Source of the DNA: Frankia sp. AiPa1
GTDB lineage: Bacteria; Actinomycetota; Actinomycetes; Frankiales; Frankiaceae
DNA: 64,000 nt
Assembly: GCF_023243075.1 (NCBI RefSeq)
Contig: NZ_JALKFZ020000141.1
Location: 62,001-126,000, forward strand
Reading direction: 5' to 3'
Under the pieces are notes generated by a model. It was not told the origin of the DNA, made no database searches, and saw only the letters and a program-made list of their open reading frames with translations. How positions within the stretch are numbered: position 1 is the first letter of the stretch; each line of letters begins with the position of its first letter. Shown here piece after piece: positions 501 to 49,980 of this stretch. Made by a program: the position numbers and the translations under genes.

Positions 501-590
501 CTCCGCTGCGGCCACAGACTCCACTGCGGCCACAGACTCCACTGCGGCCACAGACTCCGCTCCGGCCACAGACTCCGTTCCGGCCACAGA
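501..590 (+). repeat. 18-bp tandem repeat, five units
   Basis: Five head-to-tail copies of an 18-bp unit of the form CTCCxxTxCGGCCACAGA fill 501-590, with decayed copies to about 640. The period is a multiple of three, so the frame through it reads a repeated PLRPQT-like peptide. The stretch lies before the carbonic anhydrase start, so it is probably untranslated. Confidence 0.85.
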
Positions 591-44314: not shown

Positions 44315-47110
44315 GTGACGGGGTCGGCACTACCGCCGCTGACCGGGGGCACCGCGCGACCGTTGCAGCCTGACGATCCCCGAAGCCTCGGGGCCTACCA
44401 GGTTGTCGGCCGGCTCGGGCAGGGCGGGATGGGCACGGTGTTCCTCGGCCGGGCACCCGACGGCAGCGCCGTCGCGATCAAGGTGATTCGCCCGGAGCTC
44501 GCCCAGCGGCCCGAATTCCGGGCCCGGTTCGCCCGCGAGGCGCAGAGCGCGCGGCGGGTCCGCCGGTTCACCACCGCCGCCGTGCTCGACGCCGACTCCC
44601 ACGGCCCCCAGCCCTATCTGGTGACCGAGTTCGTCGAGGGACCGACGCTGTCCCGGCACGTGTCGATCCGCGGACCGCTGCGCCCCGCCGACCTGGAGCA
44701 GCTCGCGGTCAGCACGACCACCGCGCTGGCCGCCATCCACGCCGCCGGCATCGTGCACCGCGACCTGACCCCCGGCAACGTCCTGCTGTCCCCGGTCGGA
44801 CCGAAGGTGATCGACTTCGGCCTGGCCCGTGAGTTCGACGCGGACACGGAGCTGTCCCGTAATGTCCGCCAGGCCATCGGCACCCCCGGCTACATGTCGC
44901 CGGAGCAGATCCTCGGCACCCCGATCACCTCGGCCGTGGATGTCTTCTCCTGGGGCGCGGTGATGATCTTCGCCGCCACGGGCCAACCGCCGTTCGGCAC
45001 CGGCCGGACGGAGGCGATCCTCTACCGGATCGTCAACGAGCCGCCCAAGCTCGACGCCGTGAACCCCGAGCTGCGCGGTCTTGTCGAGGTCGCGATGGCC
45101 AAGGATGCCGCCGCCCGCCCGAGCGCGGAGGAGCTGCGGGCCGCGCTGATCGCCGGCGGAACCCCGCAGATCCGCCCGGCTGGCACCGCCGGAACCGTCG
45201 GCGGCGCGGTCTCCAGTCCGGGTGCGGCACCGGCCGCGAGCGCATCGGCCGCCGAATCCGACCCGTCGTCCTCGCCGCATCGACGCCGATGGGGGCGGCG
45301 TGGACGCGGCAGCACCGGCGGCACGAATCCGCGGATGCCCTCGGGCCTGACTGGTGAGTCCGCGGTCTCACCACCAGCGATGTCGGGCTCGTCACCCGCT
45401 TGCGTGGACCCGGTGGCCTACAGCCGGTCACCCTCGTCGTCCGGCGCCCCGTCGCCCACCGGCTGGTCGGCGACGCCAGCCACCCCGGCCGGCCCGGGAC
45501 ACCCGGTGAGCTCGACCATGCCGCAGACCCAGCTCTCCCCGCCGCCGGTGGCCTCACCACCACCCGCGATCGTGCGCACGTCCTCGACGCCGCCAGTCCC
45601 GCCCACGCAGCCGCCGTCCTCAGTCGCGTCGCTGCCGTCCTCGGGTTCCGCCGCGGCGACGGATGTCTCGGCGACGGCGGGGTCCTCGGCCACGGCGGGG
45701 TCCTCGGCGACGGCGGGGTCCTCGGCGACGGCGGGGTCCTTGGCAACGGCGGGGTCCTTGGCGGCAGCGGGGGCGAGCAGACGCCGCGGACGGCGGATCG
45801 TGCTGCTCGGTGGCGGCCTGGCGGTGCTGCTCGCGGCCGCGGTGGCCGTCCCGCTCGCACTGCGCGGCGGGGGATCGTCACCACCGAGCGCCGCCGAGCG
45901 CACGAGGGTGTCGACGGAGCTGGCCGCCCAGGCAGGCTCCGCGCGGCCCCGGGATCCGCGCCTCGCGGCCCAGCTGAGCCTCGCGGCCTACACGGTCGCC
46001 CCGACCGCCGCGGCCCGGGACGCACTCATCGCCTCGTTCGCCGCGTCGACGGCGACTCGGCTGGCGCCCACCGGCACCATCTATTCTGATCTTGCGCTGA
46101 GCCCGGACGGCACCGTGCTGGCCGCCACCGACAGCGCCGGACGCCTGCGTCTGTGGCGGCTCGCCGACGGGCAGCCCCCCACAGTGACTGCCCGGGGCTC
46201 CGGCGGCGATCACGCCAGCGGCGTCGTGTTCGCCGCCGACGGCCGGACCCTGGCGACCGGCGGCGCGACCGACGCCGGTCAGCTGTGGGATGTCACCGAC
46301 CCGACCCATCCGCGTACGCTCGGCCAGCTCGGTGCGCAGGCCACCGCGGTGCGCCGACTGGCGCTGTCGTCCCCGGCCCATCTGCTGGCCACCGCCGGCG
46401 TCGACTGGTCGGTGGGGCTCTGGGACATCAGTGACCCGAGCGGTCCGCGTCCGCTGAATCCGCTCATCGGCCGAGCGGGGCCGGTGACCGGCGTGGCGCT
46501 GCGCCCGGACGGTGCCCTGCTCGCCGTCGCCGGCGTCAACGGAACCGTGCAGCTGTGGAACGTGCGCGACCCGGCGTCGCCGAGCCAGGTCGGGATGGTG
46601 CCCGGCCACAGTGGTGCGGTGAACACCGCGACGTTCAGCCCCGACGGGCACCTGCTCGCGACCGGCGGCGACGATCGGAGCGTGCAGATCTCCGACGTCA
46701 GCGACCCGGCGCAGCCACGGGTCGTGCGGCGGCTGAGCAGCCACGGGTCCGCGGTGACGGCCGTGGCATTCACCGGCGCCGGTCAGGTGGTCAGCGCCGA
46801 CACCGCCGGCACGATCGCCTACGAGAACCTCGACGGCTCCGCCTCCAGCTCCGGCTCCGGCGGTACCGAGGGTTCGACCAGTGGGGCGGTCACCCGGCTC
46901 AGCTCCTTGGGCCGGGCGGTTCAAGCGCTCAGCTCCACCCAGGGCGGCACCGTCGCGGCGACCACCGACGACGGCGCGATCGTCGTCGCCACCGTCGACC
47001 CGACGCGGTTGCGTCGGCTGGCCTGCGTGAATTCGGCGGTGGCCCCGAACCGCGCGCGGTGGGACAGCCTCGTGCCCGGCATCCCCTTCACCGACGCCTG
47101 CGCCCGCTGA
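44315..47110 (+). CDS. Transmembrane Ser/Thr kinase with WD40-repeat sensor
   Basis: The 931-residue protein has a Hanks-type kinase domain (about 27-285): glycine loop GQGGMG, Lys56 in AIKV, HRD at 148-150, DFG at 167-169. The residue after HRDL, usually Lys, is Thr152 (HRDLTPGN). A long Ser/Pro/Thr-rich linker includes an in-frame 18-bp repeat (45668-45757; SATAGS). One membrane helix (about 493-515; IVLLGGGLAVLLAAAVAV) precedes a C-terminal set of WD40-like repeats (QLWDVTDP, GLWDISDP, QLWNVRDP). The propeller would face outside and could sense a wall or ligand signal. The start is GTG at 44315 after AGGAG. It converges on the Hsp70-PstS gene. Confidence 0.9.
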   Translation: MTGSALPPLTGGTARPLQPDDPRSLGAYQVVGRLGQGGMGTVFLGRAPDGSAVAIKVIRPELAQRPEFRARFAREAQSARRVRRFTTAAVLDADSHGPQPYLVTEFVEGPTLSRHVSIRGPLRPADLEQLAVSTTTALAAIHAAGIVHRDLTPGNVLLSPVGPKVIDFGLAREFDADTELSRNVRQAIGTPGYMSPEQILGTPITSAVDVFSWGAVMIFAATGQPPFGTGRTEAILYRIVNEPPKLDAVNPELRGLVEVAMAKDAAARPSAEELRAALIAGGTPQIRPAGTAGTVGGAVSSPGAAPAASASAAESDPSSSPHRRRWGRRGRGSTGGTNPRMPSGLTGESAVSPPAMSGSSPACVDPVAYSRSPSSSGAPSPTGWSATPATPAGPGHPVSSTMPQTQLSPPPVASPPPAIVRTSSTPPVPPTQPPSSVASLPSSGSAAATDVSATAGSSATAGSSATAGSSATAGSLATAGSLAAAGASRRRGRRIVLLGGGLAVLLAAAVAVPLALRGGGSSPPSAAERTRVSTELAAQAGSARPRDPRLAAQLSLAAYTVAPTAAARDALIASFAASTATRLAPTGTIYSDLALSPDGTVLAATDSAGRLRLWRLADGQPPTVTARGSGGDHASGVVFAADGRTLATGGATDAGQLWDVTDPTHPRTLGQLGAQATAVRRLALSSPAHLLATAGVDWSVGLWDISDPSGPRPLNPLIGRAGPVTGVALRPDGALLAVAGVNGTVQLWNVRDPASPSQVGMVPGHSGAVNTATFSPDGHLLATGGDDRSVQISDVSDPAQPRVVRRLSSHGSAVTAVAFTGAGQVVSADTAGTIAYENLDGSASSSGSGGTEGSTSGAVTRLSSLGRAVQALSSTQGGTVAATTDDGAIVVATVDPTRLRRLACVNSAVAPNRARWDSLVPGIPFTDACAR

Positions 47111-47310: not shown

Positions 47311-49842
47311 TCAGGCGGGTACCGGGGCAACGCCCTGGGTGAGGGACGTCAGCCTGGCCACGTTCTCGTTCACCGTCTCGTCCGTACGCGGCACATAGTG
47401 CGCGTCGAACGCGATCTTCCGACCGTTCTGCAGGTAGTACCGCAGGAACGCGGCCGTCGCCGGCCTGCGCAACGACTCGGGCAGCGCGTAGACGTACAGC
47501 GGCTTGCACAGCGGCAGGTAGAGCCCGGTGCCCACGGCGACGGCGGTGGGGGCGACGCATCCGTCACCCTCGCCGTTGTCGATCTCCACGCCGCGCAGTC
47601 GGCCGCCGAACGTCTCGTAGGTCGGATAGTCGAGGAACCCGATGGACAGGCGGTCGCCGGCCACGTCGTTGGCGACACCGCTGAGATCGGTCTGCTGCTG
47701 GTAGGACCGTGACCTGTCACTCGCGTCGCTGATCGTCGCGTTGAACACCTGCGCCTGCACCGAAGTACGCGTCGGTCCGACAAAACTGATCGGCTCGTCC
47801 GGGAACGAGGCATCGATCTGGTTCCACCGGGTGACGGAGGAACTCGCGCCCCAGACCTGCCGGACCTGCTTGAGGGTCAGGCAGTGCAGCCAGGTGTTCT
47901 GCGGGTTGACCACGATCGGCAGCGTGTGGTGGGCCACTTCGAATCCCACCAGCCGCTTGGCGCAGGACGGGTCCTTCAGTGACCCCGGGTTCGGCTCGAA
48001 GGAGGCATCGGCCAGCTCCACCTTGCCGCTGCACAGGGCGTCGAAGCCATCCTCGGTGCTGCTCGACTCGACGCTCACGGTCACGTTGCGCTGGGACTGG
48101 CGGAACTCGTTGTACGCCGTCTCCGAGATCGGCGCGACCTCGGACGACCCGGCGACGCGCACCAGGTGCGCGGCCGGGGCCGGCTCCGGCGACGGGCTGG
48201 CCGTCTCCGGGATCGGGTCGGTGGTGGGGAATGGCCCGGCCGAGGCCACCGCGGCGGGCTCGGAGCCGGAGTCCCGGTTGACCAGCACCACACCCGCCGT
48301 CGCACCGGCGGCGACGAACAGGACCGCGGCGACCAGCGCGGCGATCATCGTCCGACGCGAGCCGAAGATCCCGCCACCGCCAGCCGGGCCACCGGCCGGC
48401 GCATGCCCGCCCACCGGGCCAGCACCACCACCACCACCAGCACCGGCCACGCCCGCCAGGGTCGGCCCGGCCGCACCCGTGGCGGACTCGGCCGTCACCC
48501 TCGTGATCTCGTCGGCGGACGTCGTCCCGGCGCTGCCGGCCGCGACGACTCCGGACGTGCCTGGGCCGGACGCGTTTGGGGCCCCGGCACCGGCATCGGC
48601 GGAGGCCTGGGCACGATCCGGGGACCAGCCGAGCGGGGTCGTGCCGCCACTGGACTGGAACGGGGGCAACGAGCCGAGGCTCGCCGCGTCCGGCGGACGG
48701 ATCACCGCCGTCACGTCGTACGGCTCCTCGGCAGGCGCCGCGGCGAACACCCCGCTGCCCGCCCGGGCCGCCCGGTCGGCGAAGTCGGCGGCGAGCAACG
48801 CGGCACCCATCGCGAGGTCCGCGTCGGACCGATGCTCGATCCGGCCGAGCTGCGGAAACGCCTCGCGTAGCCGCTGGGAGACCAACGGGAGGTAGGCAAC
48901 TCCACCGGACAGCAGAATCCGCGACAGGTCGGCGGGCCCCGCCGGCACCGAACGCAGCGCCCGGCGCAGCGCGCCCACTGTGTCGTCGACCGTTGGACCG
49001 GCAAGTGCCTCGAGTTCCTCGCGGGTGAGCGTCACCGAGGTGTTGACTCCGGGCAGCGCGAGGGTCAGCTCAACCTCGCCCTCCTCGGCGAGGACCTCCT
49101 TGGCCTGCGCGGCGTCCCGGCTCAGCTGGGCGAGCGCCAGCCGGGTCGCCGGGTCGGACCGGTCAACCTGCTGCGGCCCGATTCCGGCGCGGGTCAGCGC
49201 ATGGTCGACCAGCAGGGCATCGAGGTCGATTCCGATGCCATGGCGCATGCCCGCCGCCGAGCCCACAAGCTGGAAGCCGAATGGGGAGAACGACAGCACC
49301 GCGGTGTCGAGGAAACCGGCGCCGAGGTCGTACCAGCCGACGAGGTCGACGGTCTGCGTGACCGAGGCACGGGCAAGCAGCGTGCCCATGGCGTCGGCGG
49401 CCGCGACCGCCGTCACCGGCATCTCCAGCCCCGAGCGCTGCCCGACCGCCTCGGCGAAGGCCTCGCGCCGCGCGGGCGGCCAGAACGTCGGGTAGGTGAC
49501 GACCACATGGTCCGGAGGGCCGCCGATCTGCTCGGCCGCGGTCGCCACGAGGTGCGCGACCAGCCGGCCGAGCAGACTCTCCCGGCTGTAGGCCGCGCCG
49601 CCGAGCACGATCTGGCCGTCGTCCCCGAGACGGCGCAGCAGGTCGGTGGCGGAACGGTCCGGATCGGTGCGCGCCCGACGAGCGGCGGCCCGGGCGAACA
49701 ACAGGCCGCCGCCCGGCGGGGCGTACACCACCGACGGTAGCCGCCGCTGCCCGCCGAGTTCGAGCACCCGCGGCCAGCCGCCGTCGGCGATCCCCACAAT
49801 CGTGTGTACGGATCCGACGTCGATGCCGAGCTGATATCCCAC
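47311..49842 (-). CDS. Hsp70-type ATPase fused to a PstS-like phosphate-binding domain
   Basis: The 843-residue protein joins two parts rarely seen together. Residues 1-360 are an actin/Hsp70-type ATPase: LGIDVGSVHTIVGI (5-18), YDLGAGFLDTAVL (171-183) and LLSGGVAYLPLV (310-321). A Gly/Ala-rich linker leads to one membrane helix (about 499-521) after a basic RR. Residues 555-843 match SphX/PstS-type phosphate-binding proteins: VRVAGSSEVAPISE, ALCSGKVELADASF, LPIVVNPQNTWLHCLTLKQV and WNQIDASFPDEPISFVGP. The ATPase should be inside and the binding domain outside. GTG 49842 is chosen over longer starts because AGGAG lies five bases before it. Confidence 0.88.
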   Translation of the reverse strand: MGYQLGIDVGSVHTIVGIADGGWPRVLELGGQRRLPSVVYAPPGGGLLFARAAARRARTDPDRSATDLLRRLGDDGQIVLGGAAYSRESLLGRLVAHLVATAAEQIGGPPDHVVVTYPTFWPPARREAFAEAVGQRSGLEMPVTAVAAADAMGTLLARASVTQTVDLVGWYDLGAGFLDTAVLSFSPFGFQLVGSAAGMRHGIGIDLDALLVDHALTRAGIGPQQVDRSDPATRLALAQLSRDAAQAKEVLAEEGEVELTLALPGVNTSVTLTREELEALAGPTVDDTVGALRRALRSVPAGPADLSRILLSGGVAYLPLVSQRLREAFPQLGRIEHRSDADLAMGAALLAADFADRAARAGSGVFAAAPAEEPYDVTAVIRPPDAASLGSLPPFQSSGGTTPLGWSPDRAQASADAGAGAPNASGPGTSGVVAAGSAGTTSADEITRVTAESATGAAGPTLAGVAGAGGGGGAGPVGGHAPAGGPAGGGGIFGSRRTMIAALVAAVLFVAAGATAGVVLVNRDSGSEPAAVASAGPFPTTDPIPETASPSPEPAPAAHLVRVAGSSEVAPISETAYNEFRQSQRNVTVSVESSSTEDGFDALCSGKVELADASFEPNPGSLKDPSCAKRLVGFEVAHHTLPIVVNPQNTWLHCLTLKQVRQVWGASSSVTRWNQIDASFPDEPISFVGPTRTSVQAQVFNATISDASDRSRSYQQQTDLSGVANDVAGDRLSIGFLDYPTYETFGGRLRGVEIDNGEGDGCVAPTAVAVGTGLYLPLCKPLYVYALPESLRRPATAAFLRYYLQNGRKIAFDAHYVPRTDETVNENVARLTSLTQGVAPVPA

Positions 49843-49962: not shown

Positions 49963-49980
49963 ATGTCCGCTGGTGGACAT
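49963..49980. promoter_or_regulatory. Dyad ATGTCC-GCTGGT-GGACAT between divergent genes
   Basis: A perfect 6-bp inverted repeat with six-base spacer lies between the divergent Hsp70-PstS and ada-alkA genes. A second small dyad, TTCAG...CTGAA, follows in the more AT-rich sequence at about 49985-50001. The site may be an operator for either gene. Confidence 0.4.

Follow-up and report, generated by a model that had tools for sequence, protein, structure and literature searches.

The fusion gene and its surroundings

The window analysed here is a 64,000-nucleotide stretch of the genome of Frankia sp. AiPa1. On its minus strand lies a gene (47311..49842) encoding a protein of 843 aa in which an Hsp70-type nucleotide-binding domain (NBD), a linker, a transmembrane (TM) helix and a PstS-like domain follow one another. 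Its frame begins with GTG at 49842, ends with the stop codon at 47311-47313, and stays open further 5' as far as an ATG at 49980. An earlier note on this DNA had given the same interval without a strand; the frame proved real, but the gene belongs to the minus strand. Pfam searches placed HSP70 at residues 5-352 (5.4e-29) and PBP_like_2 at residues 553-804 (1.1e-14). Between them, alignment delimited a low-complexity Gly/Ala/Pro linker (residues 353-502; 48337..48786, minus strand), whose length differs between species and which ends in a conserved GIFGSRR. It is followed by a single TM helix (residues 503-521; 48280..48336, minus strand), recognised by its hydrophobicity. Exactly one strongly hydrophobic helix was found in the fusion (19-residue window 503-521, with FGSRR before it) and in each of 23 homologues. 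The basic residues lie toward the NBD, and the five Cys of the protein, counted by inspection of the translation, all fall inside the outer domain. These sequence signals support a topology with the NBD inside the cell and the PstS-like domain outside, as the earlier note had proposed. The layout that it had read from the letters (Hsp70 ATPase-type domain, long linker, one TM helix, PstS-like domain) was likewise recovered by Pfam, the TM scan and structure models.

Convergent with the fusion lies a gene for a receptor-type Ser/Thr protein kinase identified by Pfam (44315..47110, plus strand). The predicted protein has a kinase domain at residues 28-274, a linker, a TM helix at about 495-513 and a WD40 propeller at about 591-871. 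Just ahead of the TM helix the hexapeptide S-[SL]-A-T-A-G is repeated in tandem (window 45683-45790, approximate), a stretch that could be a modification or spacer segment. Other neighbours, identified by eye, include an Ada/AlkA-like frame and meaB-like, mutase-like and CNNM-like genes; no pstCAB genes were seen beside the fusion when the neighbourhood was read. Searches with PADLOC returned no model matching the fusion. The kinase did match PADLOC kinase models (PD-T4-6 and others), which we took as generic kinase similarity, and a defence-system reading was rejected.

Distribution, origin and kinase co-occurrence

The PstS-like half of the fusion clade was present in 30 of 35 Frankiaceae genomes, covering 5 of 7 genera and mostly in frames of 789-1057 aa. 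Reading at the DNA level showed a single open frame spanning both halves in 22 genomes, which represent 5 genera. Within the genus Frankia both halves were matched in all 13 genomes, mostly in one frame. In two genomes (G006 and G009) the halves lie on different contigs, and the NBD match of G009 is short. In Candidatus Frankia nodulisporulans (G012; L008 and L024) a break within the GC-rich linker leaves the fusion as two overlapping frames, through either a real frameshift or a sequencing error. The scan of the class covered 393 genomes, and every stop-free match of fusion size came from Frankiaceae. No large fused frame occurred in the approximately 358 genomes from outside the family, where the PstS-like domain stands alone. 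The frames of other actinomycetes were of stand-alone size (mostly 320-480 aa), and the 198 genomes scanned across the phylum agreed with this. A 717-aa open frame in G384 was considered as a fusion outside Frankiaceae and found unsupported: with a 300-aa minimum, the 5 kb of sequence read there gave frames of 313-418 aa.

The fused proteins formed one clade in both the NBD tree and the outer-domain tree (100/99 and 100/100). The major inner order also matched between the trees of the two halves, with clade C outermost, clade B together with genus g153, and clade A. A single clade and a matching order in both trees indicate one fusion, inherited as a unit and duplicated later. Within Frankia, purifying selection acts on both halves (NG86 dN/dS of 0.11-0.21 in clade A, with dS close to saturation for some pairs); values in genus g154 were higher (0.33-0.48). 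Given that the single frame recurs across 22 genomes and 5 genera and that purifying selection acts on both domains, the fusion is no chance or assembly join. The split in G012, with its change of frame between the halves at the linker, could be cited in favour of a frame error or of an assembly that joined two genes. This explanation is practically ruled out by the other genomes read, independent assemblies from 5 genera in which one frame stays open through both halves, and by the congruent trees. The fusion, whose recurrence the earlier note had made a matter for domain searches across genomes, does recur, and neither outcome named there as counter-evidence (a frame error, or separate proteins only in close relatives) was found.

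The duplicate in clade B, hereafter paralogue B, is 48% identical in its PstS part and, in three genomes of Frankia (G001, G005 and G011), is found 4-6 kb away from the A copy. At its loci (L043, L044, L111:15270-17813, L124 and L125) the NBD is more decayed and the outer domain conserved, and in all copies the adenosine motif has GP in place of GG. In genus g152 (L124 and L125) paralogue B sits in another neighbourhood, without the kinase.

The best match to the C-terminal half of the kinase occurred in exactly the 30 genomes, among the 35, that have the fusion. The distance between the two genes was below 3 kb in 26 of these 30, and in the remaining four (G007, G012, G221 and G229) they lie on other contigs. 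Four of the five fusion-less genomes had no kinase match and the fifth (G223) had a weaker, partial one; three of these five genomes are 81-88% complete and one is 63% complete, and the 35 related genomes are not independent. The arrangement of the pair varies. In genus g154 the kinase stands in tandem upstream of the fusion, with about 170-240 bp between them. In most Frankia it is convergent and forms no operon with the fusion, and in several the two are 2-2.5 kb apart with genes between. The pair is kept where other flanking genes differ (L117 and L123). Since the synteny with mutase/meaB and CNNM is also conserved, slow rearrangement explains part of the pairing.

Nucleotide and ligand sites of the two domains

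The inner domain (residues 5-352; 48787..49830, minus strand) was assigned from Pfam, alignments, an AlphaFold2 model and Foldseek. The model has a pLDDT of 89.6, and Foldseek returned DnaK/Hsc70 NBDs, including that of Geobacillus DnaK (2v7y, TMq 0.83). The Pfam HSP70 match stops at profile position 373 of 599 and is followed by the linker, the TM helix and the PstS-like domain; by the same profile and the TM scan, the substrate-binding domain and lid are absent. In the alignment, the NBD retains D8, S11 and D172 (D8, T11 and D194 in DnaK) and has L69, A148 and F177 at the positions of K70, E171 and T199. The K70 position is L, P, V or A in all 24 fused proteins. In comparison with the DnaK of the AiPa1 genome itself, E171 is replaced throughout and T199 in all except two members; the E171 column moves by one or two places between two alignments, and in both the NEP/TEP motif is absent from the fused members. 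By the same comparison, D8 and, almost always, D194 are retained in clades A and C, together with a hydroxyl at T11. Clade B has lost T11, G342 and the GGGT loop in all members, and those from Frankia also lack D8 and D194.

T11 and K70 are gamma-phosphate sensors (PMC12406271). DnaK K70A and Hsc70 K71A bind ATP and do not hydrolyse it, and T199A lowers DnaK hydrolysis by at least 95% (PMC9691929). From these mutant data and the replaced K70 and T199 positions, the NBD of the fusion is expected to have lost ATP hydrolysis. Judged by its retained residues, the clade A domain may still bind nucleotide, and hydrolysis through an unusual geometry may still take place. For clade B in Frankia, the loss of D8, D194 and the adenosine-motif GG (G342 to P) makes the usual use of ATP impossible.

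The outer domain (residues 547-818; 47389..48204, minus strand) has a PstS/SphX fold according to TIGR02136, alignments, an AlphaFold2 model and the match to 4jwo. TIGR02136 (PstS family; NCBIfam) covers residues 547-818 with an E-value of 1e-40, and its 139.8 bits lie below the curated cut-off of 206.6 bits. The model has a pLDDT of 80.4, with low confidence at about residues 694-717, where loop IV is altered. The best solved match was 4jwo (Z 25.7, rmsd 6.7, 271 aligned), and 4exl was matched with Z 21.4 and rmsd 3.0 over 236 aligned residues. The domain has five conserved Cys.

The residues of the anion pocket have been rebuilt (E568, E597, D598, F615, V695, Q696 and D738), these positions coming from alignment and not from coordinates. 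The loops concerned are those that we take to correspond to the E. coli PstS phosphate contacts T10, S38, D56, R135, S139, G140 and T141, and in the alignment the contact motifs GSST, SGTGGG, ASR and SGT are all altered. The comparison set was 29 stand-alone relatives, of which the phylum scan supplied 28 and a relatives search one. In all 24 fused proteins the T of loop I is E (E568), the R of 'ASR' in loop III is F or Y (F615), and the GT of loop IV is V (V695) followed by Q, H or P (Q696); T, R and GT are each kept in 29/29 stand-alone relatives. Furthermore, the GG of loop II has become E/D-D (E597 and D598) in 20 of the 24, and all fused members have a new D in GFLD (D738). E568, V695 and D738 are strictly conserved across genera in the 24 fused proteins. 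The lost Arg and the Glu placed in an anion loop strongly disfavour phosphate as the ligand, while strict conservation of the new pocket residues favours a new ligand or partner. Judged by these residues, the ligand of the outer domain is most likely not phosphate; its two conserved acidic loops point rather to something cationic, to an amine or to a protein partner.

The same genome encodes a canonical PstS (L102, with HRSDGSGTT), its strongest PBP_like_2 match, followed by a frame that by eye resembles a PstC-like permease. With this separate protein present and the phosphate motifs of the fusion lost, we dropped phosphate uptake as its main role. A 571-aa frame elsewhere in the genome (L103, contig C146) has PBP_like_2 after hydrophobic stretches, by eye, and is perhaps another membrane-anchored PstS-like protein.

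Possible roles and comparison with known systems

Given that a matching receptor kinase gene lies beside it, the fusion appears to be a sensor of a new type. Our preferred reading, to which we assign a probability of roughly one half, is that of a membrane co-receptor that senses a ligand, has a pseudo-ATPase as its inner domain and works together with the neighbouring kinase. The outer PstS-fold (Venus-flytrap) domain would bind a non-phosphate ligand, and the ligand-induced change would pass through the single helix to the cytoplasmic Hsp70-NBD-like domain. With hydrolysis lost, this pseudo-NBD would be either nucleotide-locked or a purely structural module for signalling or docking. The co-inherited kinase-TM-WD40 protein would then probably read the signal, in a membrane heteromer and/or by phosphorylating the linker or the NBD.

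Alternatively, the kinase might be a mere neighbour, with the pseudo-NBD recruiting or regulating cytosolic partners (e.g., DnaJ/GrpE-type proteins or the envelope-growth machinery) in response to a cell-wall or host ligand. Paralogue B of genus g152, which sits elsewhere without the kinase, is in keeping with such independence, as are the TM-anchored Hsp70-NBD relatives with other ectodomains in actinomycetes, which were compared at the protein level. We nevertheless hold it to be rather unlikely, because the presence and absence of fusion and kinase are matched in the 35 genomes and the pair survives changes in its flanks. A structural or scaffold protein, in which both folds are inert, bind no small molecule and mediate contacts between proteins across the envelope, would fit the rebuilt active sites of both domains and the additional losses of clade B in Frankia (D8, D194 and the adenosine-motif GG). 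It is improbable in our view, since the altered pocket residues are themselves conserved (E568, V695 and D738 in every fused protein, the loop II E/D in 20/24), which suggests a new ligand site rather than decay.

The earlier note had suggested a phosphate sensor in which binding outside alters an ATP-driven Hsp70 clamp inside. The PstS fold and family-level similarity speak for the first half, and the Hsp70 fold, the Mg residues of the D8/D194 type and the T11 hydroxyl kept in clade A, with which ATP may still be bound, for the second. Neither half was supported. The T, R and GT positions are changed in every fused protein and kept in every stand-alone one, the genome encodes a canonical PstS elsewhere, together with what by eye is a PstC-like permease, the K70, E171 and T199 positions of the presumed clamp are replaced, and it has no substrate-binding domain. 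The proposal is accordingly very improbable.

If the co-receptor reading is true, a family with nitrogen-fixing plant symbionts among its members would be using the Hsp70 fold for signalling and not to drive a chaperone. Few bacterial receptor Ser/Thr kinases have a known stimulus, and a co-inherited binding-protein co-receptor would provide such a kinase with a concrete, testable ligand-sensing partner. With both sets of motifs lost, the vague 'Hsp70 family / phosphate-binding protein' annotation gives way to sharp predictions, namely that the protein neither turns over ATP nor binds phosphate. More tentatively, and with well under even confidence, we suggest an actinobacterial 'pseudo-Hsp70 receptor' class, with a dead Hsp70 output module, a WD40-type kinase partner and a PstS-fold ectodomain for a new, probably cationic, ligand. 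To our knowledge, a binding-domain transmembrane sensor with a pseudo-Hsp70 inner module is unprecedented. The open-access literature searched on Hsp70-PstS and Hsp70-receptor proteins and on Frankia Hsp70 and kinases contained no account of such a layout, consistent with the earlier note, which knew of no protein built in this way.

As it lacks several of the defining features tested for each, the fusion belongs to neither the chaperone Hsp70 nor the PstS proteins. It shares with DnaK/Hsp70 (PF00012) the fold, the overall NBD sequence (E-value 5e-29) and, in clade A, the Mg-site Asp residues. It differs in lacking the substrate-binding domain and lid, in the replacement of K70, E171 and T199, in its membrane anchor and in the fused outer binding domain. 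With PstS/SphX (TIGR02136, PF12849) it has in common the fold of a Cys-bearing, exported-type domain, the closest solved relative, 4jwo of Planctomyces limnophilus, being 26% identical to the outer domain. Unlike PstS/SphX, it is not a free protein, its anion loops are rebuilt in every fused member, it is not beside pst genes and it scores below the TIGR02136 cut-off. Metazoan HSPA13/STCH also has an Hsp70 NBD without a substrate-binding domain; it is a eukaryotic ER protein with no fused binding domain, whose NBD has the Lys and Thr that were mutated to disable its ATPase (PMC9691929).

Of similar build are TM-anchored actinomycete Hsp70-NBD proteins (L163, L155, L166 and L040, and L002 in this genome), which likewise have an NBD, a low-complexity linker, one TM helix and an outer part. 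In contrast to the fusion, these proteins, from Frankia and from further families of actinomycetes, retain GTT, K, E and GGGTFD and have no PstS domain. With their catalytic residues intact, they are possibly an unrecognised receptor family. By eye, the outer parts in this group (L163, L155, L154, L156, L166, L171, L170, L040 and L002) are beta-propeller-like, ricin-lectin-like or almost absent, and an 865-aa protein of the same genome (L005:154-2751) has an Hsp70 NBD followed by WD40-like repeats. The system that works most alike is actinobacterial GlnH-GlnX-PknG (PMC6069109), where both conservation and function tie a Ser/Thr kinase to a membrane protein and a solute-binding protein. Here too a binding protein is conserved together with a Ser/Thr kinase, a comparison of working and not of membership. 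GlnH is a separate lipoprotein and PknG a cytosolic kinase, whereas in the Frankiaceae pair a TM helix connects the binding domain with a pseudo-Hsp70, and the kinase carries a WD40 ectodomain and a TM helix of its own.
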